This document shows positions 11,550 through 45,746 of a stretch of DNA of 49,925 nt, piece by piece; the first letter of the stretch is position 1; the number at the start of each line of letters is the position of its first letter. The notes under the pieces are model-generated. The model saw only the letters and a program-made list of their open reading frames with translations, ran no database searches and was not told where the DNA came from. This stretch comes from an uncultured Lachnospiraceae bacterium (lineage in GTDB: Bacteria > Bacillota > Clostridia > Lachnospirales > Lachnospiraceae): the NCBI GenBank assembly GCA_947179245.1, contig CAMXBD010000004.1, forward strand, positions 1-49,925, read 5' to 3'. The translations under genes and the position numbers were made by a program.

Positions 11550-14500
11550 TTAATGTGAAACCGAGAAATAATTAATCAAAATCTCCTTGATGTGATTATA
11601 CCTTCTTGCATATGAGTTTTCTACCCGGATCAACTGCAAATCATGTTCTTTACAGATAGCATTTTTCTTCTTATCCCTGTTAATTACCACTTCACTCTCA
11701 AAATGTTCTTTACCGTCGAGTTCGATCGCTAAGATTGGAATTTCCTGCTTTCCATGCTTTTCATACACTACAAAATCAAAGCGTCCGTTGTAGAATAAGT
11801 CGTTGTAACTCTCATTATTCCGGAATACATGGGCAATTGCCACCTCTTTATGTATCGTGTACCGGCTCTGCGTCAGCCATATATTTTCCAGCGCGTGAGT
11901 CAAATTCTGTAAAAACGCTTCCTCTGTAACACTGCTAAACGGTTTCACACCTAAAGCTCTGGATGATACTTGTTTTGGCGTGACTTTAGTTGTTCCGTTG
12001 GAGCGCACATACTGCGCAAGTTCGTATAAATCATCGTCTCCTTCTTTCTGATGAAGACGTTCCAGATTCTTTTTACTGGACAACATAATTAATTTATCTT
12101 TTGCTCTGGATGTTGCAACATTGATTAATTCTTTGTTATTCTTAAGCCACTCATATGTACCTGCCTGCGTTTCATCAGTAATTGCTGTGGAAAACAAAAT
12201 AATGTCTTTTTCATCTCCCTGAAAAGCATGAACTGTCCCACAGGTCACATTCGTCACCTTAGCACGAGCCAATTCCTCCTCTATTAACTTCTTTTGATTT
12301 ACAAAAGGCGTAATGACTCCGATATTTTTATCCCGGTTTTGCGCCGCGTATTTTGCAATCTCATAAGCCTCTGTCGGAGCTGTATTCTTATAATCTGAAA
12401 ATGCTTCCTGCATATCTATATATAAAAGTGGCTGTACCTCACTACTTTCTGACAGAATACTCAGACGCGAATTATAGTATTTCTGATTATTAAATCCTAT
12501 AATGCTCTTATGACAGCGGTAATGATTATGCAGCAGCGTCTCATCACTGACTGCATCGCAAGCAAGATAAGTCTTATAAATGGAATTCTTACGGTAGTCA
12601 TATTCATCAGATATTGTATAACGCTTCTTTAATTTTTCATTAGTTATCTCATCTAATAATATAACCGGATTAAGCTGCTGGGGATCTCCTACCAGCATAA
12701 GACTCTCTCCCCGCACAATCGGCACCAAAGATACTGCAACATTACATTGACTTGCTTCATCCATAATCACCATGTCAAACATCGGTTCTGGCTCTCCAAG
12801 ACGATGCGCTGAAATGCAAGTTGTAACAATAATCGGAAAAATTTTCTGCAGTTTTATAATATTATCTTTCTCTCCCAAATATTTCGTGAAAGCCTCAAGC
12901 TGTTTTCCTTCCTCTTCCATCTCTAAAATTTTTTTAAGTTCCGAGTTTCTGGGCGCTCCAATCTTTTTAATGTATCCAGCAGAAGTATAATAAAGATATT
13001 CTTTCAGCCTCTCTACATCCTTGTCAAGAAGCGATATTGCCTCCTCTTCCGACACCTCTCCTGTCGTTTCAATTTTTCTATTAATCTGTTCCCGCTGCCT
13101 GTTTCTCAAATCTTCTTCAAAAGACATCATTTGAAATGAAGTTCCCTTTTTCTCTTCATAATCAAGTACTCTGTCAATCGTCTCCTTGCGCTCTTTCAAA
13201 TCTAACAAATCTTCATATCGTTTCAGCAACTCCGACAAACGTTTAGCGCGCTTCTTTCGATCATCTTTGTTTCGGTCCAAAGTATTCTCAAACACTTTTA
13301 TATTCTGCACACTCTCATACAACCTCTTGATTGTAGAAAGTGCTTCTTTGACTTTCTCATTATTCCCCAGACGCAGGATTGGAAACGGAATCGTTTTCCC
13401 TCGGAATTTTATCGTACTCAATTTCTCATAAACCCCATTGATCGGATGATTATTATAAGATGCAAATAAGACGGTACGTTCATTAAAAAATGCTGTCACA
13501 ATCGTATTGATAATCGTATTTGTCTTTCCTGTTCCGGGCGGACCCTGTATATATGCTACCGGATACTTCATAGCATTGTCAATTGCAAGCAACTGATCCA
13601 TATTAATTCGACGGTTAATTAAAGCAATCGGATAAGCTGCCGTTCTCCTCGGTCGCTCCAGCAAATCACCAAAGAAAGCTCTAATCGGTACAGAAACTTC
13701 TCCGTTCTGATACATCTTCATAATTGCCTGATATTCTTTGTGCAAGTCCAGCGCAATATCTGTCTCCAAGCCAATAATATACGGCATATCATCCACATTG
13801 TTTCCGTTCCTCTGCATACGTCTCATAATGCAGTCTTTAATTTTCTCTTGATTTGCTTCGAAATCAGCGAGCAATTCATATTCATCCCCATCCAAGAATC
13901 TACGAATACTTTGCTTTGTTCCATCTATGGTGAATTCCGTACAAATCGTAATCTCGTCCTCAGCCTTTAATGCACGATGTTTCACATCCAGATTCAACTT
14001 GCGATAAGCTAACACATACAATCCTTTAGTCATATGAACACTTAAAACATTCATCGCCAGCTGTTTGATTTTCAAACCTCCATCCGCACGGTTATTATAT
14101 TCTGTCTGATATTGGAAATTTTTCACGATTTCGGAAAACTGTTCTGAACTCAACTGATATAATTCTCCCCTGATATGATCGTGATCCAAGTACTGAACTA
14201 AGCTAAAATCTGACTTGTATGGAGTTGCATCAAGACGGTTGCACATTTCAAGATAGCTAAGTATCTTCAAATTTGCCGAATTATCAAAAACTGAATTATA
14301 TTTATGGGGATTCAAATAAATATCCTTGACCAAGGTTTCATTGACAGGATAAAAAGAACCTTCTATGATTCTGGAAGACTGTATGGAATCTATCTTTATT
14401 CTATCAAAGGTCTCCACCGTATACTGCCTAAGATGAAGACCTTCCACTGCCAGAGTACGATTACGAACATCCAAGTTACGGATACCGATCCAGTATTTCG

Positions 14501-14588
14501 TATTCTGATTTTCTTTATTGTGGTATTCGATGCTTAACCACTTTCCTTCATGAATCGCACGGAATATATCCCGAAGAACTGCATTCAT
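11550..14588 (-). CDS. WYL-like / SF1 helicase / PD-(D/E)xK nuclease fusion
   Basis: 1012 residues. Residues 11-80 resemble a WYL-type beta barrel (EGKWLSIEYH ... TFDRIKIDSI). The Upf1-type SF1 helicase core has Walker A GPPGTGKT at 349-356, Walker B MDEASQ at 609-614, GDPQQL at 634-639, HYRCH at 689-693, GTVHAFQGDEKD at 784-795 and VATSRAKDKL at 824-833. A coiled-coil-like insert (about 430-560) sits after motif Ia. The C-terminus (about 925-1005) is a DUF2726/Vsr-like nuclease fold with D938 and ELDGK at 956-960. A nucleic-acid motor with a built-in nuclease and an N-terminal sensor is usual for defence islands; the target is unknown. The ribosome site AAAAGGGGA is 7 bases upstream. Confidence 0.85.
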   Translation of the reverse strand: MNAVLRDIFRAIHEGKWLSIEYHNKENQNTKYWIGIRNLDVRNRTLAVEGLHLRQYTVETFDRIKIDSIQSSRIIEGSFYPVNETLVKDIYLNPHKYNSVFDNSANLKILSYLEMCNRLDATPYKSDFSLVQYLDHDHIRGELYQLSSEQFSEIVKNFQYQTEYNNRADGGLKIKQLAMNVLSVHMTKGLYVLAYRKLNLDVKHRALKAEDEITICTEFTIDGTKQSIRRFLDGDEYELLADFEANQEKIKDCIMRRMQRNGNNVDDMPYIIGLETDIALDLHKEYQAIMKMYQNGEVSVPIRAFFGDLLERPRRTAAYPIALINRRINMDQLLAIDNAMKYPVAYIQGPPGTGKTNTIINTIVTAFFNERTVLFASYNNHPINGVYEKLSTIKFRGKTIPFPILRLGNNEKVKEALSTIKRLYESVQNIKVFENTLDRNKDDRKKRAKRLSELLKRYEDLLDLKERKETIDRVLDYEEKKGTSFQMMSFEEDLRNRQREQINRKIETTGEVSEEEAISLLDKDVERLKEYLYYTSAGYIKKIGAPRNSELKKILEMEEEGKQLEAFTKYLGEKDNIIKLQKIFPIIVTTCISAHRLGEPEPMFDMVIMDEASQCNVAVSLVPIVRGESLMLVGDPQQLNPVILLDEITNEKLKKRYTISDEYDYRKNSIYKTYLACDAVSDETLLHNHYRCHKSIIGFNNQKYYNSRLSILSESSEVQPLLYIDMQEAFSDYKNTAPTEAYEIAKYAAQNRDKNIGVITPFVNQKKLIEEELARAKVTNVTCGTVHAFQGDEKDIILFSTAITDETQAGTYEWLKNNKELINVATSRAKDKLIMLSSKKNLERLHQKEGDDDLYELAQYVRSNGTTKVTPKQVSSRALGVKPFSSVTEEAFLQNLTHALENIWLTQSRYTIHKEVAIAHVFRNNESYNDLFYNGRFDFVVYEKHGKQEIPILAIELDGKEHFESEVVINRDKKKNAICKEHDLQLIRVENSYARRYNHIKEILINYFSVSH

Positions 14589-17815: not shown

Positions 17816-18328
17816 TCAATAATAATTCGGCATCGGCTCCTCCGGATACTCTCCCAGCATATTGAGCACATAAGGCCATTTGCCCGCATCCTCTATAATA
17901 AATCCGTAAATCACACCCATATGACGGTGCCAATGTCTGAACTGCCCCAAAATCAGACGAAATCTGCTCATATCACAGTTTTCGGGATTCTCAGAAAGCT
18001 CGTCATCCTTTAATTTCACAATATAATTTTGTATCTTATCGCGAATCTGAAAAAAATATCCTTCCAGCTGTTCTCTGCTAAGATATTCTTCTTCTGGTAT
18101 GACATTCAAGTTGGCTAAATTATCTGTGTGAAAAGGCGGGTCTTGATATGAGCCGTCGCACGGATTGATATACCATCTGTCCATAGAATATAACGTATGA
18201 TACAGAAATTTCCACATAGGAATCCCGTCATACCGTTTCACCCATAGTTCGTCCGGAATACATTTTATGAGATTTTCCGTTTCCCACAGTGCCCTGTCTG
18301 TCAGGTATCTGATATCATCGCATAGCAT
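17816..18328 (-). CDS. DinB family protein
   Basis: 170 residues. The expected metal-site histidines are in KFLYHTLYSMDRW (near residue 45) and FRHWHRHMGVIYGFI (near 132-145), matching the DinB/YfiT-like four-helix superfamily. Second DinB-like gene of the window after 10865-11524; the two are not obvious copies. Separate from its neighbours by 38-55 bp on the same strand. Function in this organism is unknown; the superfamily includes metal-dependent thiol transferases. Confidence 0.75.
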   Translation of the reverse strand: MLCDDIRYLTDRALWETENLIKCIPDELWVKRYDGIPMWKFLYHTLYSMDRWYINPCDGSYQDPPFHTDNLANLNVIPEEEYLSREQLEGYFFQIRDKIQNYIVKLKDDELSENPENCDMSRFRLILGQFRHWHRHMGVIYGFIIEDAGKWPYVLNMLGEYPEEPMPNYY

Positions 18329-18366
18329 TTTTGATTCTCCTTATATCATAGATTCAAAGTTATCCA

Positions 18367-18855
18367 TTACTTCATTATCATATCCCCAACCATCTTCCAA
18401 GCCTCCACCAGCCTCTCCAGAGAATACCCCGCATTTGCCGGACTCGTTGACGGCAGGAGCAATGCTTCCCGCCCGTTCACCGGGAAAATATATTTCTGAT
18501 ACAACTGATGTGCCTTACCTCCGTTCGTATAGATTGCCCGTATGTCCGCATGTGATAAAATACACGACAGATCATTCGGAACCACATCACGGATACTCGC
18601 ATCCGACGAACCTGTAATCTCACAACTTGCGATTACGTCCCACACCGCAATATGATGGGTAATCAGCATCGCCCGTTTTTCTTCTATACTTGCCGGCACC
18701 GCACAGCCAAGCACCTGCGCCAAAACCCGCCAGAAGCGATTCTGCTTATGCCCGTAGAAAAACTGTTGTTCCCGCGACTTCACAGAGGGGAAGCTGCCCA
18801 GTATCAGAATTTTGGATTCACTGTCGTAGACAGGCGGAATAGGGTGATTTAACAT
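18367..18855 (-). CDS. DNA-deoxyinosine glycosylase (UDG superfamily, family 6)
   Basis: 162 residues, the usual short length. Motif LGSFPSVKSRE (residues 19-29), the following FFYGHKQNRFW, and the C-terminal LLLPSTSPAN are those of the hypoxanthine-DNA glycosylase branch of the uracil-DNA glycosylase superfamily. It removes hypoxanthine, formed by adenine deamination, from DNA in base-excision repair. Start ATG with GGAGGAGAA about 8 bases upstream. Stands alone. Confidence 0.9.
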   Translation of the reverse strand: MLNHPIPPVYDSESKILILGSFPSVKSREQQFFYGHKQNRFWRVLAQVLGCAVPASIEEKRAMLITHHIAVWDVIASCEITGSSDASIRDVVPNDLSCILSHADIRAIYTNGGKAHQLYQKYIFPVNGREALLLPSTSPANAGYSLERLVEAWKMVGDMIMK

Positions 18856-18923
18856 GATAAAATTCTCCTCCGTCTATTGTTATCATATAGTATCTAACGG
18901 CATCACCGATGGGATTTTTATCT

Positions 18924-19154
18924 CTATATTTCTGCCTGAATTAAGCGCTCGAAATTCCTTTCATCTTGAAAAATACCATAAACATACGCTGAACTTTCAA
19001 GATATAAACCCGTCTCAATATCTGTAAGCTTATCAAAAGTTTGTGAATTATAAAATAGCTGCATTGCCTTATCATATTCAATATTTAAGTCCATAACTAT
19101 ATACTCAGTAATATCCTGAATATGGTATTCAACGAGCTGCTCCTGCTTCGTCAT
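18924..19154 (-). CDS. Small acidic helical protein, third gene of the DUF3990 unit
   Basis: 76 residues from ATG 19154, overlapping the DUF3990 gene by 26 bp; a TTG four codons earlier is in frame but unneeded. Sequence starts MTKQEQLVEYHIQDITEYIV and ends FERLIQAEI. It has the size and rhythm of DUF3791-like proteins (helix, then a conserved YDKAMQLFYNSQTFDKL segment, then a Y-rich helix). It is the last gene of the four-gene operon. An immunity or antitoxin role for the ADP-ribosyltransferase-like neighbour is likely but not shown. Confidence 0.7.
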   Translation of the reverse strand: MTKQEQLVEYHIQDITEYIVMDLNIEYDKAMQLFYNSQTFDKLTDIETGLYLESSAYVYGIFQDERNFERLIQAEI

Positions 19155-19659
19155 GATAAACACCAACTTTCTTCAAAAATTTTATAGCTTTTTCTGTGTG
19201 AAACGAATATTGACTCGTTGTTTCTCTATAAGTCATTCCATTTATTAAAGTATCTAACGAAATCATGTTATTCTGATATTGATGAAACAGTACAGTCATA
19301 TCGTCATCTGCAATCGGACCGGATACAATATCATATTTACAATCAAAATTGCAATCTTTACTTTTAAAATCCGTAAAATATTTATTGCGGTTGTTCATTA
19401 CAAATAATGCCCAGCCTTTTGATGGTATCTTGCCAAAATTTCTAATATTCAGCTCCTTGCTCTCTAACAAATCATCCGATATTTCATAAATATTTACAAA
19501 CGGTGTTCCTCCATAAATTTTTGCAACACGTTTTGACATCTTTTGTGCCTGTTCAAGCAGTTCAGTAGTATAGAATCCTCTCCCAAAGTCCTTATAAGGA
19601 CGACACAACGCCATGTCAATAGACTGTATATCAAGATTTGTACCATGATACAAAATCAT
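19129..19659 (-). CDS. DUF3990 protein, ADP-ribosyltransferase-like
   Basis: 176 residues. The opening MILYHGTNLDIQSID, the block DFGRGFYTTELLEQAQKMSKR and a middle conserved W-A-x-F-x-x-x-N-R block are those of DUF3990, whose fold is thought to be related to ADP-ribosyltransferases (YHGT as first NAD-binding strand). Likely a cytoplasmic modifying enzyme or toxin. The start overlaps the upstream DUF3791 stop as ATGA, with GGAGGG 9 bases upstream. A longer frame to 19686 is not needed. The flanking small genes on both sides overlap it, so all three are translationally coupled. Confidence 0.82.
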   Translation of the reverse strand: MILYHGTNLDIQSIDMALCRPYKDFGRGFYTTELLEQAQKMSKRVAKIYGGTPFVNIYEISDDLLESKELNIRNFGKIPSKGWALFVMNNRNKYFTDFKSKDCNFDCKYDIVSGPIADDDMTVLFHQYQNNMISLDTLINGMTYRETTSQYSFHTEKAIKFLKKVGVYHDEAGAAR

Positions 19660-19877
19660 GTAAGCATCCCTCCATTTTTTCTGCAAATCATCATCATATC
19701 ATCAAGTACGTCCTCCAGTGACAATGTATGCTCAATATCATAATTTTCTTTCAAAAATTCTATCGCTTTATACTGAAAAAGATACTGGAATGCCTCTTTC
19801 ATTTTCAGATTATGCCTATGCGCAAATTCGTTGACGCAAACAACAGCATAATTTATTTGTTTTCTCTCTTCACTCAT
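19656..19877 (-). CDS. DUF3791 protein
   Basis: 73 residues, helical. VVCVNEFAHRHNLKMKEAF, then FQYKAIEFLKENYDIEHTLS and VLDDMMMICRKNGG are the DUF3791 pattern. DUF3791 genes commonly precede DUF3990 genes in Firmicutes, as here, with a 4-base stop/start overlap. A role as small partner or antitoxin is inferred from that pairing. Ribosome site AAAGGGGG just upstream. It lies 33 bp after the RHH regulator gene. Confidence 0.82.
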   Translation of the reverse strand: MSEERKQINYAVVCVNEFAHRHNLKMKEAFQYLFQYKAIEFLKENYDIEHTLSLEDVLDDMMMICRKNGGMLT

Positions 19878-19910
19878 ATATACCCCCTTTTAAGGCTTTA
19901 AAACGATACC

Positions 19911-20270
19911 TTACTTCACAATGTACTGTGCATGACGACCATAATCAGCCATATCATGGAACTCAATTTTATTCGGACACTCTTCTTGAATATAACTGAA
20001 AAACTGCTTTCCAAATACACCTGCTATGCCTCTTTCGATGGTCCATTCATCACCATATAGTTCCGGCAAGGTAAATAAAGAACCCGGCATATATTCTCCA
20101 CTATCGCATTTTTTCATGACACGCTTTACAGCTTCTGCTGGTGTAAATATCGTCTTTAAGTTAAATAAACGATTCCTGACGCAATCCTGTATGGACACTC
20201 CGTCCTGCTTTGCCATTTCTTTCAGCTTTTCATAGTATTCCTCGCTCAATGCAAATGTAATTTTAGGCAT
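19911..20270 (-). CDS. Ribbon-helix-helix regulator with DUF1413 domain
   Basis: 119 residues. The N-terminus (PKITFALSEEYYEKLKEMAKQDGVSIQDCVRN) is a ribbon-helix-helix DNA-binding domain. The C-terminus (about 60-119: MPGSLFTLPELYGDEWTIERG, then GIAGVFGKQFFSYIQ) is DUF1413. First gene of an operon with DUF3791 and DUF3990. Two 16-bp palindromes in its own promoter are good candidates for its binding sites, so autoregulation as in RHH antitoxins is likely. Strong ribosome site GAGGAGG 5 bases upstream. Confidence 0.85.
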   Translation of the reverse strand: MPKITFALSEEYYEKLKEMAKQDGVSIQDCVRNRLFNLKTIFTPAEAVKRVMKKCDSGEYMPGSLFTLPELYGDEWTIERGIAGVFGKQFFSYIQEECPNKIEFHDMADYGRHAQYIVK

Positions 20271-20304
20271 ATATACCTCCTCATATATCTACACAAACAC
20301 ATCG

Positions 20305-20365
20305 TTGACATGCAGTCTACTGCATATATTGTATCCAATATATCATGCAGTAGACTGCATGTCAA
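20305..20365 (-). promoter_or_regulatory. Promoter with double palindromic operator of the RHH/DUF3990 operon
   Basis: A near-perfect 61-bp palindrome. Each half holds ATGCAGTCTACTGCAT, itself a palindrome (20310-20325, and its complement form 20345-20360). On the minus strand TTGACA (20360-20365), 17 bp and TATATT (20337-20342) form a strong promoter whose spacer is exactly one operator copy; the second copy lies just after the start point. Fits repression by an RHH dimer of dimers. Confidence 0.85.
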
Positions 20366-20432
20366 TATACATTTTATCCCATGCATTCATATCCATATTT
20401 AGAAAGATTCTTTTTCAGCTGATAACGCCCTT

Positions 20433-22715
20433 TCACTCCCCAACCGAACTCTTAAACAGTATCCACGTACTGATAAAATAGCACAACAGTAACAATACAA
20501 GAACCCCTCCGGTCACCAGAATCTGCATCATCAACGTTCCAAATCCGATATACGCCGAAATCTGTGCAGATACCGATTGTATAAAATATGTCGCAATAAC
20601 TGCCGAAACAAGAATTGCCACAATAACAGGAAGCCCGAACCATACTCCTAACTGCTTCAATATAAGATGTTCGACATCCTTTTCCTCAACGCCCAATTTC
20701 CGCAGTACAGCGAAGCGGTATCGGTAATGTCCGGCATCCAAAAGCTGCTGTAAAGAAAGTATCGTAAGACAGATAACCATCAGTATAACTGCGCCATACA
20801 GCATGACCGCCTGTAAAACAAACATATCCGCCTTTGTCCGGTTAATCTGCAATGTGCTCAAGCCGATTCCATAAGCGACGCCGCTCTCTGTATTTTCTGG
20901 ATAGACTGACACAAAAAGCTCTTCAAGTTCATATGCTTTTTCATAAGAAATCTTATCCGTCGTAATGATATACCGATTCCGCATGACCGGAAGCAATTTC
21001 CGGCAGACACTGTCAGGAAATACAAGCACGGCATCCGTGTAGGAATTATAGAGCGTCTCACCCATCGCCTCAGTATAGCAGTTTCTTTTGGCAAGAGTTA
21101 ACTTGCCGGCATCTGTTGAAATTTCCCCATGCGTCTTAAGGAAATCATCCCGCTCATCTTCGGTGGCAATGGTCTGCCACTGCGTCGTAAATTCATTTTC
21201 TTCCAAAGAAATCTGTTCATAGCCCAGCATCTGCCTGATCACATTGTAATCGCTCAATGATATTGCCACCACAGGGAAATCATATTTGATCCGCTTATGA
21301 AAATCCTCGCTTCTTGGCAGGTATAAGTCAAACGTAATATCATAAGCCGTTTCCACGCCATTTTCTGCCAGATAATCCGCTACAAATTCATAATCATCCC
21401 GCGGGAGATTTTCCTCCTCATACACATTGTTGTAGCGTGAAAAGATTTGCACATCATACTTTGAACGCACATCCAGATATCCCCCAGCCCATCCAATCAA
21501 CACGGGAGCTATCATAAACAGAAATATCGCCATTGCTAACGTTGCACAGATTAACGTCATGGTCTTGTTCGTCGTGGACAGTTTCGTTGTAATCTGCCCG
21601 TAAAAGAACAAATTCTGACCGTGGTATCTGTGTTCCGGTGACTTTTCTTTCCATGCAATAATAAAACTGTTTGCCAGATAAATCACCGCACAGATCAGGA
21701 AAAGCAGGTCAACCAGAACGGACATCATATATTGATTATTGATACCGGTCCCAAAGGATAAGTAATATTTATTCTGCATTCCCGGCATACTCGCCGCACA
21801 AAAAGCATTCAGTATGGAACAGACAAGCAGTCCGGTAATCAGCGTAGAAAAGCTATTTTTTTGTCCATCTGTTCCGCTGCCTGCCTGATTTGCGACCGCC
21901 TGCTTATGATCGCACTTCTTCCTGCCAGCCCATATTGCAATAAGCCATCCAACAGACCAGAGAAGCATCGCCGCCGGAAGCAGGATATTTCCCCAAAACA
22001 TGATATGCACAGGAATCGCAAAGCGTCTGTCAAAATAGTAATACATTGTCTGGATTCCATTCGCAAGCATTCCAGCTGCGGACAATTCATACAGTATGAT
22101 GACGGTTGGCATCCAGCGGCTTTTCTTTAATGAAGGCTCGTTCTTTTTATCCGCAGAAAGCATATCGATAATCTTGATTTTCCTGACCGTGCGAAGATTA
22201 AATAACCCGACAACAATAAAACTCAGCACGAAAAATCCAATCGTAAGAAGCACCGTATCCGGGAACAGCGTCCACGATATACGATAACTTTTCTCATAAG
22301 AAGTCAGCACCATTGCCGTAATAAATTGTGAGCCAAATACACCGAAAAATATTCCTGCTGCAATGGCACAAATCCCCATAATGAATGTCTCCGCAAAGAA
22401 AATCCTGCCTATTGTCTTCTGTTCCATTCCCATTACAGCCTGCAGTGCAAATTCTTTCTGTCTGCTCCTAAGCATATAATGATTGACATACCGTATCAAA
22501 AACAGCAGCAGCAGTGTGACCGCACAGATTGCATATTTCATGCCTCTGCCCAATATTCTGAAATTGTATTCACTGCCTACATCCGGATGATAATATCTGC
22601 TGGATATGGACAAAAAAGAGTAAAACAGCGTAACACAGATGGTCATGGTCACAAGATAGACCAGATATTCTTTTACAGACCGTTTCGCATTCTTAAGAAC
22701 AAGTTTAGCATACAT
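20433..22715 (-). CDS. BceB-type ABC transporter permease
   Basis: 760 residues. Ten predicted helices: an FtsX core near residues 50-160 (FALQAVMGMEQKTIGRIF), a middle group, a large outside domain (about 430-640), and a C-terminal FtsX core (FAVLRKLGVEEKDVEHLI). This is the layout of BceB-like permeases, which sense cell-wall-active peptides and free their lipid targets together with a Bce-type kinase. ATG at 22715 has GGAGGAGGG 7 bases upstream and overlaps the ATPase stop by 11 bp; the longer frame to 22733 lacks a ribosome site. Confidence 0.9.
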   Translation of the reverse strand: MYAKLVLKNAKRSVKEYLVYLVTMTICVTLFYSFLSISSRYYHPDVGSEYNFRILGRGMKYAICAVTLLLLFLIRYVNHYMLRSRQKEFALQAVMGMEQKTIGRIFFAETFIMGICAIAAGIFFGVFGSQFITAMVLTSYEKSYRISWTLFPDTVLLTIGFFVLSFIVVGLFNLRTVRKIKIIDMLSADKKNEPSLKKSRWMPTVIILYELSAAGMLANGIQTMYYYFDRRFAIPVHIMFWGNILLPAAMLLWSVGWLIAIWAGRKKCDHKQAVANQAGSGTDGQKNSFSTLITGLLVCSILNAFCAASMPGMQNKYYLSFGTGINNQYMMSVLVDLLFLICAVIYLANSFIIAWKEKSPEHRYHGQNLFFYGQITTKLSTTNKTMTLICATLAMAIFLFMIAPVLIGWAGGYLDVRSKYDVQIFSRYNNVYEEENLPRDDYEFVADYLAENGVETAYDITFDLYLPRSEDFHKRIKYDFPVVAISLSDYNVIRQMLGYEQISLEENEFTTQWQTIATEDERDDFLKTHGEISTDAGKLTLAKRNCYTEAMGETLYNSYTDAVLVFPDSVCRKLLPVMRNRYIITTDKISYEKAYELEELFVSVYPENTESGVAYGIGLSTLQINRTKADMFVLQAVMLYGAVILMVICLTILSLQQLLDAGHYRYRFAVLRKLGVEEKDVEHLILKQLGVWFGLPVIVAILVSAVIATYFIQSVSAQISAYIGFGTLMMQILVTGGVLVLLLLCYFISTWILFKSSVGE

Positions 22716-23472
22716 GGCTCTGCCCTCCTCCAATCATAGTAAGAACATTTATGATTTTGTCGAAAAAGGCGCCTCTGCTGTCACTGCCCTTATACAATTC
22801 TGTGAAAATTTCCCCGTCCTGCAAAAACAAAATACGACTGGCATAGCTTGCAGTGAAGGCATCATGTGTGACCATAATGATCGTCGCACCAAGCTGTTCA
22901 TTGATTCTCTGCATGGTAGAAAGCAACATTTGGGCGGAGTGGCTGTCTAACGCTCCGGTAGGCTCATCCGCCAAAAGCAGTTTCGGATTGTTAATCAATG
23001 CCCTCGCACAGGCACAGCGCTGTTTCTGACCACCCGAAACCTGATAAGGATATTTATTCAAAATATCACTGATATTCAGCCGTCTAGCCATTTCCAGAAT
23101 ACGCTCTTCCACTTCTTTTGCCGGTACCTTATTGATTGCCAGCGCTAAAGCAATATTTTCAGAAATGGTCAGCGTGTCCAGAAGATTGAAATCCTGAAAC
23201 ACAAAGCCCAGATTCTCCCTGCGAAACCGCGCAAGCAGCTTCGGGTTCATTTCTGTTATATCGGTCCCTTCCAGCCGGATATGCCCCGCGCTCACGGTAT
23301 CAATTGTAGAGATGCAGTTGAGCAGGGTCGTCTTCCCGGAACCGGAAGCCCCCATAACGCCGAGAAATTCACCTCCCTCTACCTCAAAACTGATATCTTT
23401 AACCGCTTTTGTGATATTCCCCTCATTGCCGTAATATTTCTGAATTTGTTCCAATTCTAAGATCGTACTCAT
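22705..23472 (-). CDS. BceA-type ABC transporter ATP-binding protein
   Basis: 255 residues. Walker A GASGSGKTT, Q-loop FVFQDFNLLD, signature VSGGQKQR, Walker B LLLADEPTGALD and ITHD-type switch (MVTHDAF). The N-terminal LEQIQKYYGNEGNITKAVKDISFEV and the FQDFNLLDTLT stretch are typical of BceA/YxdL/VraD ATPases. It powers the permease downstream. Its promoter region, between the kinase stop and this start, holds three TTCTTAC sites for the partner response regulator. Confidence 0.92.
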   Translation of the reverse strand: MSTILELEQIQKYYGNEGNITKAVKDISFEVEGGEFLGVMGASGSGKTTLLNCISTIDTVSAGHIRLEGTDITEMNPKLLARFRRENLGFVFQDFNLLDTLTISENIALALAINKVPAKEVEERILEMARRLNISDILNKYPYQVSGGQKQRCACARALINNPKLLLADEPTGALDSHSAQMLLSTMQRINEQLGATIIMVTHDAFTASYASRILFLQDGEIFTELYKGSDSRGAFFDKIINVLTMIGGGQSHVC

Positions 23473-42351: not shown

Positions 42352-42762
42352 TTATATAATAGGGCTCATCATTTTCTCTAATATCTCAATCAGCGACAGA
42401 TCCGCCGGAAGCCACTGCACATCATACAATTCTTTCTTTGTAAGCCATCTGGCGGCTTCTGCTTCTTTGAGCACCAGCCTGCCCGCATTCACTTTCGCCA
42501 AGAAGCACCCCATTGAAAGATGGAATGCCGGATAATCATATTCTATGGTATGTATCATACTGCCCACTTCGATATCAGTGTCCAGCTCTTCCCTAATTTC
42601 TCTGATAAGTGCATTCTCCGGGGTTTCCCCTTCTTCAATTTTGCCGCCCGGAAATTCCCACTGTCCTTTGAACTCTCCGTAGCCTCTGGCTGTTGCAAAT
42701 ATCTTCGAGGGGTTCTCCATGTCGTCACAGATGATTGCTGCTACTACCCGTATTGTTTTCAT
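42352..42762 (-). CDS. MutT-type NUDIX hydrolase
   Basis: 136 residues. NUDIX box GGKIEEGETPENALIREIREEL (in parts) has all catalytic glutamates. The opening IRVVAAIICDD and EFPGGKIEEGE fit the MutT/8-oxo-dGTP pyrophosphohydrolase group. Overlaps the helicase stop by 4 bases, so translation is coupled. Its C-terminus after WLPADLSLIEILEK is unusual (MMSPII), at the fusion with the MmcQ remnant. Confidence 0.88.
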   Translation of the reverse strand: MKTIRVVAAIICDDMENPSKIFATARGYGEFKGQWEFPGGKIEEGETPENALIREIREELDTDIEVGSMIHTIEYDYPAFHLSMGCFLAKVNAGRLVLKEAEAARWLTKKELYDVQWLPADLSLIEILEKMMSPII

Positions 42763-45746
42763 AGTGTGTTCTCCTCAACCGCTATTCCGCTTTGCAGATA
42801 ACGAAGCAAATCCTCCCTCACCGGATGATGCATCTTAACCCGCACTTTTGAAATAGCTTCTTTCTTCCCTTTATTGTTTTCTTTTTCTGCCTCTTTTACA
42901 TCTACGATATCAAACTGTCCCATATAATAGAAATTACTTTCGGCATCACTTTTTTTGACAAACAAGCGTTTGCGCTTCGCAGTGATTACATCCTGCATAT
43001 AAGAACTGCCAATGCCTTTACCGATCTGAGAATCCCAACGGAAAATCATATTATCTTCAAACATATCCGCATAATCGGGCTTGCCTTCTACATAATTCTT
43101 ATCATCGTCTGCCTGTTCCTTATGATATGTAACAAAAATAAAAACATCATCATCTATACGCTTCATTCCATACATGATCGATGATAAGTCCTTCCCGCAA
43201 TTCATGAGAAGGCTTACATCTCTTCTCGAATATTTCTCATACATAACAAAAGGAGTTTCGTCATTTCCTCTCACCATATACTTATCTGCATATCGCTTTA
43301 ATCCCACCGATACAATGTCATCAATCTGATCATAAAACTCTTTATGTTCCAAGCGATTGGCAAAACTGCTCATTCTGTTAAGATTTCTTTTTTCATCATA
43401 ATCGAGCACATCTATATGACAAAACTTCTGATATTCCTCCTCCTTACTGACAAAATGTCCCTGCAGTACATCGATTGCGTTTTCAACATATTGTAATTTA
43501 AAATCATAGTCATATTTTTTCTTAAAGTCTGTCTGCAAACGCTCGATGGAAACACAATCGCACATCACGACTGCCTTCAAAATTTCCAGTTCATATGGAC
43601 GTGCTCCACTCAAAATCGTTTTAGACAAATATTCTAAAGTCAATTTTTCCTGATCTGTCAAGGAACATATATAAGTGTCCTTTTCCATTGCTTCCAGAAA
43701 AGCATAGTATGTTTTATACTCTTTTATTATAACAAGTGGATCAACTTCTCCATTTTCATAAAAATCTAACAGATATGGAATTCGTCCCAGCCTGTTTTTA
43801 AGTGATACATAACTATCCTTGATAATCGTCCTGATACCACGAATTTTATCGATGGATTTGAATATTTTATCTTTTGCCACTTCATCAAAATGTATTGTAG
43901 ACACTCCCGGTATCGTACTGTTTCCACTAATCACATATTTTCTGATAGTATCCGCGTTGTATGTACGGTCTCCCGACAACGCAACAGGAATCATAAAATT
44001 ATTCGTATAATTACCAATAAAATCTAAAACTACAACATATTCCTTATCTTCTGCCTTACGCAAACCCCGTCCTAACTGCTGAATAAATACGATCGGCGAC
44101 TCCGTCGGACGTAACATAATAACCTGATTAACCTCTACGATATCAACGCCTTCATTTAGAATCTCAACTGAAAAAATATAATCTAAAGGCCGTCTATCAT
44201 CTGTTGACTCACTCTCGTCCATTGCCAGTCTCTCAAAGGCTTCTATGCGCTCATCCTCTGATGCATCGCCGTTCAGAGAAATCGTTCTATATCCCAATGC
44301 ATTAAACTTATCCGACAATTCCTTAGACTCATCAATCCGACTGCAAAACACCAAACCTTTCACACGCTCACCGCTATAACCATAATACTCCGCCTGCTCA
44401 ACGATATGCTTTACGCGCTCATCACAAACAAGCTGTCTAAAGTCTTTCGCCAACATTTTTGTTGTCTTAAGCGTTTTATCCTTCACCATAGAAAGATCAC
44501 TGATTCCGAAATAATGAAACGGGCAAAGAAGATTTTGTTCCATCGCCTGTTGAAGTCTGATTTCATAGGCAATCTGATGATGAAAAATTTCGTATATATT
44601 TCTACCTTCTTCATGGTCATCACGTTTGTCTGGAGTCGCCGTCATACCAAGCCATAACTTTGGCTTAAAGTAACCCATAATCTTCTGATAGGAATTAGCT
44701 GAACTATGATGTGCCTCATCCAAAATAATACAATCAAAATCCTCCGGTTTATAATGAGTAAGATGATCTTCTCTAGTTAAAGTCTGAACTGTCGCGAACA
44801 CATAATCTTTGTCATACTCATGGTATCCGGCACCAACAAGCCCCATAGAAACATTGTTTCCGAATACTTTTTCATAGGATCGCTTTGTCTGCCGAGCCAG
44901 TTGTCCTCTATGTACAAGGAAAAGTACTCGTTCAAACTCAAGCTCACGCATAGCGAATGCTGAAGCATAGGTTTTTCCCGTACCTGTAGCAGATATAAGC
45001 AAGGCTCGCTCTTCGCCGGAGGCTATAATTTTACGCAGATTACTAATAAATCCAATCTGCATCTCATTAGGTCTTAGTCTATATTTCTCTATAGATGGAA
45101 TTATTTCTTGCTTAGCTAATTCCCGCTGTTTCTTTATAATCCGATAACGTTCTTGATAAGCCTCAAAAAAATCATCATATTCCAATGTGTGAACTGATTC
45201 CCACAACTGTGAAAATTCTTCAACCAACTCACTGGTAACTTCACCCTGCTCTGTAGAAACAATCTTCGTATTCCATTCTTTATTGCTAGTGAGCGCGGCA
45301 CCTGTCATATTAGAACTGCCTATAATAATGCGATATATCTCTTCCTTCCTAAAAATATATCCTTTTGTGTGAAAATCGGCGTCTGACGCCTCAGCATCAT
45401 ACATTTTAAGAGTAATATTTTTTAATTCATGAAGCTTCTCTAATGCTGCCGGCTCGCTAAAACTTAAGTAATTCGTTGTGAGAATTTCGCCCGGAATCTC
45501 TCGTTTCTCCAGTTCCTTTAACGTCTGCAAAAGAGGTGTGATTCCTCCCATTGTGATAAAAGCAACACTGATCTGAAAACAGTCGCATGCCAAAAGCTCA
45601 TCCTCGATAGAAGATAATACCTTTTTACCTTCTTTGTGATTATTAGAAACAAATTGAGGCCTGTATGATATGTTAGAAGCCACACTGCCATCTATATATG
45701 CTGTTTTATATCCATTATAAAGCTCGTTGATAATAGTTTGATCCAT
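42759..45746 (-). CDS. PLD nuclease / SF2 helicase / DUF3427 protein
   Basis: 995 residues. A phospholipase-D-type nuclease half-site comes first (HTKGYIF, H126/K128, then GSSNMTG at 143-149). The SF2 helicase follows: Walker A SATGTGKT (252-259), DEAH (343-346), TAT (369-371), and motif VI QQLGRGLRKAEDKEYVVVLD near 540-560. A C-terminal DUF3427 (about 690-990, ending with FVKKSDAESNFYYMGQFDI) closes it. This order is shared by known DUF3427 helicases, whose role is unproven but often near defence genes. Preceded by a P-loop protein 7 bp away. Confidence 0.9.
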   Translation of the reverse strand: MDQTIINELYNGYKTAYIDGSVASNISYRPQFVSNNHKEGKKVLSSIEDELLACDCFQISVAFITMGGITPLLQTLKELEKREIPGEILTTNYLSFSEPAALEKLHELKNITLKMYDAEASDADFHTKGYIFRKEEIYRIIIGSSNMTGAALTSNKEWNTKIVSTEQGEVTSELVEEFSQLWESVHTLEYDDFFEAYQERYRIIKKQRELAKQEIIPSIEKYRLRPNEMQIGFISNLRKIIASGEERALLISATGTGKTYASAFAMRELEFERVLFLVHRGQLARQTKRSYEKVFGNNVSMGLVGAGYHEYDKDYVFATVQTLTREDHLTHYKPEDFDCIILDEAHHSSANSYQKIMGYFKPKLWLGMTATPDKRDDHEEGRNIYEIFHHQIAYEIRLQQAMEQNLLCPFHYFGISDLSMVKDKTLKTTKMLAKDFRQLVCDERVKHIVEQAEYYGYSGERVKGLVFCSRIDESKELSDKFNALGYRTISLNGDASEDERIEAFERLAMDESESTDDRRPLDYIFSVEILNEGVDIVEVNQVIMLRPTESPIVFIQQLGRGLRKAEDKEYVVVLDFIGNYTNNFMIPVALSGDRTYNADTIRKYVISGNSTIPGVSTIHFDEVAKDKIFKSIDKIRGIRTIIKDSYVSLKNRLGRIPYLLDFYENGEVDPLVIIKEYKTYYAFLEAMEKDTYICSLTDQEKLTLEYLSKTILSGARPYELEILKAVVMCDCVSIERLQTDFKKKYDYDFKLQYVENAIDVLQGHFVSKEEEYQKFCHIDVLDYDEKRNLNRMSSFANRLEHKEFYDQIDDIVSVGLKRYADKYMVRGNDETPFVMYEKYSRRDVSLLMNCGKDLSSIMYGMKRIDDDVFIFVTYHKEQADDDKNYVEGKPDYADMFEDNMIFRWDSQIGKGIGSSYMQDVITAKRKRLFVKKSDAESNFYYMGQFDIVDVKEAEKENNKGKKEAISKVRVKMHHPVREDLLRYLQSGIAVEENTL

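Follow-up and report, generated by a model that had tools for sequence, protein, structure and literature searches.

A Conserved DUF3791-DUF3990 Unit of Toxin-Antitoxin Form Behind an RHH-DUF1413 Leader in an Uncultured Lachnospiraceae Bacterium

Introduction

Does a short run of overlapping genes around a predicted ADP-ribosyltransferase represent a toxin-antitoxin type of its own, or a common core placed under an uncommon regulator? The question is raised by four minus-strand genes of an uncultured Lachnospiraceae bacterium (assembly GCA_947179245.1, a draft genome of 3.4 Mb in 233 contigs, 88% complete). They lie in contig CAMXBD010000004.1 (C4), whose 49,925 nucleotides (nt) are hereafter called the window. 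The open reading frames (ORFs) and the promoter reported in the initial annotation were recovered as described: ORFs of 119, 73, 176 and 76 amino acids (aa) between positions 18924 and 20270, and a TTGACA-17-TATATT site ahead of them. We refer to the leader, of ribbon-helix-helix (RHH) and DUF1413 type, as R (19911-20270), and to the following genes as A (DUF3791, 19656-19877), T (DUF3990, 19129-19659, with an ATG start) and B (a small protein, 18924-19154). A gap of 33 nt separates R from A, while A and T overlap by 4 nt (ATGA) and T and B by 26 nt.

The A-T-B genes are a regular member of a catalogued and still unvalidated defence candidate, and the only unusual part of the locus is the R leader with its operator. 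With a probability of about 0.6, we read the locus as a toxin-antitoxin-like unit under an acquired autoregulator, R, in which T would be an ADP-ribosyltransferase toxin neutralised by the A/B pair. Its function is probably anti-phage. DUF3990 genes are very common in Lachnospiraceae, being found in 86 of 150 genomes of this family, and T (protein P0003) had a match in 195 of the 397 same-family genomes searched.

Conservation of the Three-Gene Core

Besides the window's own copy, 12 full-length close homologues of T were obtained (54-71% identity), and all of them carry A directly upstream and B directly downstream, B being cut by the contig end in L054. A-T-B is thus a conserved three-gene unit of which B is the ordinary third member, and the suggested recurrence of the DUF3791-DUF3990 pairing holds in 12/12 cases. 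Such recurrence marks the core genes as more than a chance occurrence, and the toxin-antitoxin-like form proposed for them is supported. In the profile comparison of these loci the DUF3791 profile also reached DUF3990 through fusion proteins, and A was scored from matching ORFs distinct from T.

A broader survey comprised 154 DUF3990 loci: the matches of the 30 best-scoring genomes together with 60 further matches from the 150-genome search, the best of the 397-genome search, and 34 viral loci. With loci chosen in this way, the sample leans towards a single bacterial family and is not random. After removal of duplicates and of ORFs shorter than 120 aa, and leaving out L003, L004, L034, L053 and L083, 142 distinct DUF3990 proteins were classified (an upstream ORF was present in 119). 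These comprise A-T-B (40), T followed by an AB or BA fusion (28), AT-B fusions (5), T-B (21), T with a long M42-like partner (23), A-T without B (1), contig ends (3), and other or no partners (21). These classes were assigned by rules on adjacency, length and profile match, which missed some M42-like partners recognised by eye (L113, L166). Where A lies directly upstream of T, B follows downstream in 40 of 41 modules. On the other hand, modules with B in which no A was found (21/142) imply that A is at least not universal. The genome studied here contains two more DUF3990 loci, L001 (contig C114) and L003 (contig C1); one has a 163-aa partner that matches the B profile and resembles A-B fusions, and the other is truncated, with a partner fragment.

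In the comparison with the same-genus copy L054, dN/dS was about 0.16 for DUF3990 and about 0.12 for B, the latter over only 59 codons as the contig ends there; no dS was obtained for DUF3791.

The Predicted ADP-Ribosyltransferase

T is an unambiguous DUF3990 protein (PF13151, 149.3 bits, E 8.5e-44), and its likeness to ADP-ribosyltransferases, already noted in the initial annotation, is borne out by structure prediction. The model is confident (pLDDT 89.7), and the 50 fold matches listed are all ADP-ribosyltransferase folds, including ParT, RES, diphtheria toxin, tankyrase and MbcT, so that T can be assigned to this fold at the level of a predicted structure. Two alignments, one of 25 sequences and one of 21, show Y30 and Q150 invariant and H5 conserved in at least 90%; these residues fit a putative H-Y-Q triad of the H-Y-[E,D,Q] clade. 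The protein is a single domain of 176 aa that starts at the first strand, with no trafficking domain. A phage nucleotide search returned nothing useful.

Among the papers found that name DUF3990 or DUF3791, none reports a function test, and PMC10763514, in the part concerned with this domain, terms its function unknown. A viral contig (L107, 742-3447) encodes a 901-aa protein with a DUF3990 match that resembles a polymorphic toxin.

The Two Small Partners

A is a clear DUF3791 protein (PF12668, 77.9 bits, E 5.9e-22). B has no Pfam family above the cut-off and no PF12668 match. A profile built from 40 A-type proteins and one from 65 B-type proteins aligned over 67 columns with a probability of 93.3% and an E-value of 2.6e-7, against 0.15 for a control with the B profile reversed; the window's B alone gave a weak match to the A profile (E 0.093). 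The Pfam DUF3791 model, applied to six B-type relatives, accepts L086 (29.5 bits versus a cut-off of 25), places L021 and L094 just under it, and does not match L058, L084 and L103. By profile comparison, then, B is a distant paralogue of DUF3791. The idea of a distinct type defined by the leader together with the third small gene is not supported, as B is the usual third member and the leader is absent from 12/12 close homologues.

Nature has also joined these domains in several ways: A to T (L073), B to A downstream of T (L029) or upstream of it (plasmid pBF9343), and A to B downstream of T in loci of the PDC-M10B type. Scanning viral contigs for A-T fusions gave nothing useful. A rule emerges of one toxin fold accompanied by an A-type and a B-type DUF3791 domain, separate or fused, which renders toxicity and neutralisation directly testable. 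The long T partner of L114 (3647-4285, 212 aa) carries a C-terminal helix-turn-helix (HTH) domain (HTH_3, 39.8 bits), matches PDC-M42B and has an antitoxin-like layout; its type was considered as a homologue of A or B and set aside, the similarity not being significant (probability 1.1% and 3.1%). Autoregulating antitoxins often carry an HTH-type domain.

Relationship to Known Systems

The window's A, T and B have as their best PADLOC matches PDC-M13A (E 5.4e-41), PDC-M13B (E 9.8e-52) and PDC-M13C (E 6.3e-35), in that order and in adjacent or overlapping genes, which places them in PDC-M13: the same three core genes, in the same order, of which R is no part (0 PADLOC matches). This phage defence candidate has 3324 occurrences in rumen genomes according to PMC13356809. 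Most candidates in the core defensome still await validation (PMC12988326). PDC-M10 and PDC-M42 share with the window a DUF3990 gene followed by a downstream partner, but the M10B-type partner scanned (L093) is by profile an A-B fusion, and the M42B-like partner scanned is the HTH-bearing protein of L114.

Other ADP-ribosyltransferase systems show partial likeness. CmdTAC (mRNA ADP-ribosyltransferase, antitoxin and chaperone) is likewise a three-part operon around an enzyme of H-Y-[E,D,Q] type (PMC11618068), but no SecB family for a SecB-like chaperone, and no macrodomain of the kind that serves as antitoxin in DarTG, appears in the Pfam matches to E 10 of the four window proteins. No Cmd-named model occurs among the PADLOC matches of these proteins, the presence of such a model in the library being unconfirmed. 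The partners are of DUF3791 type, instead of those of ParST, RES-Xre or MbcTA, and neither A nor B matches an Xre-type antitoxin domain. The layout also departs from a classical type II system with an RHH antitoxin, since R is missing from 12/12 close homologues and from all other survey loci, and A stands between R and T. The Bxa system, with two immunity proteins, was considered and set aside: the Bxa toxin modifies arginine, is of MuF type and comes with an ADP-ribosyl hydrolase, and DUF3990 is not named in its description (PMC11699363).

The Leader and Its Operator

R just exceeds the Pfam cut-off for DUF1413 (25.3 versus 25 bits) and falls under that for RHH_1 (17.3 versus 20.5 bits). Its DUF1413 label is marginal by sequence, because a six-frame search of its own genome with this family gave no match at E 0.001. 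The best match of the DUF1413 half, with a middling score, is LP1413, a winged-helix protein of SCCmec elements known to bind single-stranded DNA (ssDNA; PMC6851490). R differs from it by an extra N-terminal RHH-like domain, and its DUF1413 half is predicted to be a winged helix, the known ssDNA binding being that of LP1413, not of R.

The distribution of R sets it apart from the core. Across the survey (154 loci, 5131 ORFs) its profile matched a single gene, that of the window. Co-occurrence of the genes in order thus holds for A-T-B and fails for R. As R is absent from the other DUF3990 loci surveyed, the leader is not conserved with the rest, a finding that the initial annotation had named as fatal to the four-gene unit; the three-gene core stands. 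Conversely, R homologues occur without the module, and an R-A-T-B type was rejected. The 150 same-family genomes gave two R matches, one of them the window's own. Beyond the window, at least seven distinct loci were obtained (L046-L052), at least five in genome contigs and two in viral contigs, and none was found in plasmid and phage collections. Their hosts are Lysinibacillus (L046), Lachnospiraceae bacteria (L047-L049) and Ohessyouella (L050, the same place as L035), L051 and L052 being the viral contigs. A profile search for DUF3990, DUF3791 and gene B detected none of them in these seven loci, although the sequence downstream of R amounts to just 120 bases in L049 and about 1.9 kb in L047. 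Several of these homologues are flanked by genes of phage replication type, assigned by eye. A similar protein of 65-72 aa follows the R homologue in L046 (4375-4593) and L035 (1858-2055) and may be a partner of R beyond the window.

Different DNA-binding leaders stand at some other modules: an HTH_3-like one precedes A in L163 (22.1 bits) and L171 (25.0 bits; cut-off 23), and, before T where A is lacking, there is RHH_3 in L090 and a RelB-like gene in L152. Leaders have thus been swapped before a stable core, and one of them bears a domain known elsewhere to bind ssDNA. In L029, L075, L088 and L155 a different upstream leader overlaps the DUF3990 start by a few bases, with a weak DUF6788 match in the two that were scanned, L088 and L155 (20.7 and 16.2 bits; cut-off 27.2).

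The promoter-operator (20305-20365, minus strand) agrees with consensus at 11 of 12 positions and has a TG before the second hexamer (extended -10). Among the 11 promoter-like sites of 18300-20700, a total in line with shuffled sequences (mean 9.5), it ranks first. It is enclosed by an inverted repeat whose 21-bp arms match perfectly around a 19-bp centre, each arm containing one 16-bp palindrome (20345-20360 and 20310-20325); the 16/16 arm match was reached by 0/200 shuffles. Within the assembly the exact palindrome is confined to these two copies, with single-mismatch versions at three other places (C41, C46, C60). The claim of a purpose-built promoter is thereby upheld, and the architecture fits a dedicated autoregulated operator to which R would bind. 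R looks like a regulator acquired together with its own promoter. Among the loci searched, the RHH-DUF1413 leader with its own operator is unique to the window locus, which makes this locus a variant.

Whether this operator design is common to all R homologues was considered by comparing eight upstream regions with shuffles, and the support was too weak: the window (0/200) and L052 (fraction 0.005) exceed the shuffles, L050 (0.075) and L049 (0.105) are suggestive, and L046, L047, L048 and L051 lie within the shuffle range (0.345-0.965). In C. difficile a DUF1413 gene is situated in an invertible region (PMC5903667). An invertible promoter seems unlikely at the window locus because the centre measures 19 bp.

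Proposed Mechanism and Alternative Readings

In the toxin-antitoxin-like reading under R, gene order, overlap, conservation, A/B paralogy, natural fusions and operator architecture are shown, together with the predicted fold; we infer catalysis, toxicity, neutralisation, a trigger, a defence role and binding by R. As a single-domain protein, T would belong to the H-Y-[E,D,Q] group of ADP-ribosyltransferases. The paired DUF3791-fold proteins A and B would keep it inactive in a T:A:B complex and may aid its folding, translation of the three probably being coupled through their overlapping genes. A trigger, most likely phage infection, would remove or compete away A or B, and the freed T would modify an essential target or consume NAD, so that growth stops. 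R, with its RHH and predicted winged-helix parts, would occupy both palindromes, on either side of the -10 hexamer, and hold expression of the operon low. Several points weigh against this account. No Foldseek E-value for T is better than 0.01, and no solved relative was found in the PDB by sequence. PDC-M13 is a candidate on bioinformatic grounds alone, and one protein can match models of more than one letter, P0003 (T) also matching M13A and M10A, P0002 (A) M13C, and P0004 (B) M13B. The 21 modules with B but no A detectable by the rules used, and the further 21 left unclassed, count on the same side.

The place of R allows other readings. R might have nothing to do with the module and be a prophage remnant that happens to lie ahead of it, as would suit its absence from every other DUF3990 locus surveyed and the prophage-like or other settings of its homologues. 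We regard this as somewhat unlikely, given that R and A share a strand with neither another gene nor a terminator-like site between them on that strand, that the best promoter-like site of the region stands in front of R, and that the modules of L163, L171, L090 and L152 also have DNA-binding leaders. Very improbable, on the other hand, is the more elaborate proposal that R came from phage replication loci and serves as a sensor-repressor whose RHH half would hold the palindromes while the LP1413-like half binds ssDNA; ssDNA from a replicating phage, or from DNA damage, would then pull R off its operator and flood the cell with A-T-B. A phage-encoded R homologue acting as counter-repressor could equally be conceived within this proposal. 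If true, it would provide a defence candidate that is switched on by the invader's own replication intermediate.

As for the core, the same toxin-antitoxin biochemistry could have been selected for keeping a mobile element, as in addiction modules. T homologues do occur on 69 plasmid records (42 of Bacteroides, 28 predicted conjugative), the Bacteroides fragilis plasmid pBF9343 (L202, 2055-4115) carries a B-A fusion, DUF3990, one small ORF and then a zeta-toxin gene, and a module lies near an integrase on Geobacillus phage E3. Selfish maintenance is nonetheless unlikely for the window, where the module sits between ordinary chromosomal genes, and type I restriction genes adjoin it in some other genomes, besides its listing by PADLOC as a defence candidate. 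A slightly less probable alternative makes A and B folding or targeting subunits and the T-A-B complex the active toxin, with a transcriptional (R) or post-translational off switch. It draws on the fusion of A or B domains to T or to each other, and on CmdT, which shows no toxicity by itself, probably because its accumulation depends on CmdA (PMC11618068); against it, the long partner found in the same place in L114 has the HTH_3 domain typical of many autoregulating antitoxins, with the reservation that its homology to A/B is not significant. Most improbable of all is an effector-immunity cassette, in which T would be delivered by contact or secretion and A and B would confer immunity. DUF3990 is indeed the C-terminal domain of Serratia Rhs5 and Enterobacter RhsA (PMC4524185, PMC10763514), and the 901-aa protein of L107 also contains it, but the window's T is a bare domain beginning with its first strand, and its partners overlap it on both sides.

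Chromosomal Setting

The genes flanking the four-gene block were identified by eye as an ABC-transporter permease (20433-22733) on one side and a glycosylase-like gene (18367-18855) on the other. In the same-genus genome G542 these two genes share a contig, and the roughly 2.5 kb between them hold a MATE-type gene (by eye) in place of the module; the slot is therefore variable. The next gene upstream is a type I restriction gene in at least 7 of the 142 modules (by eye, with no background rate for comparison), and the short fragments L063 and L174 among these neighbours have no Pfam match. Other defence-type matches occur elsewhere in the window. A 1012-aa protein (11550-14588) partially matches Mokosh MkoA and MkoC (E about 1e-47) and PDC-S37. 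About 22 kb from the module, at 42352-45746, a type IV restriction enzyme-like gene (PADLOC mREase_IV, E 1.1e-181) directly follows a PDC-S07 gene (E 9.8e-46), with a 4-nt overlap.
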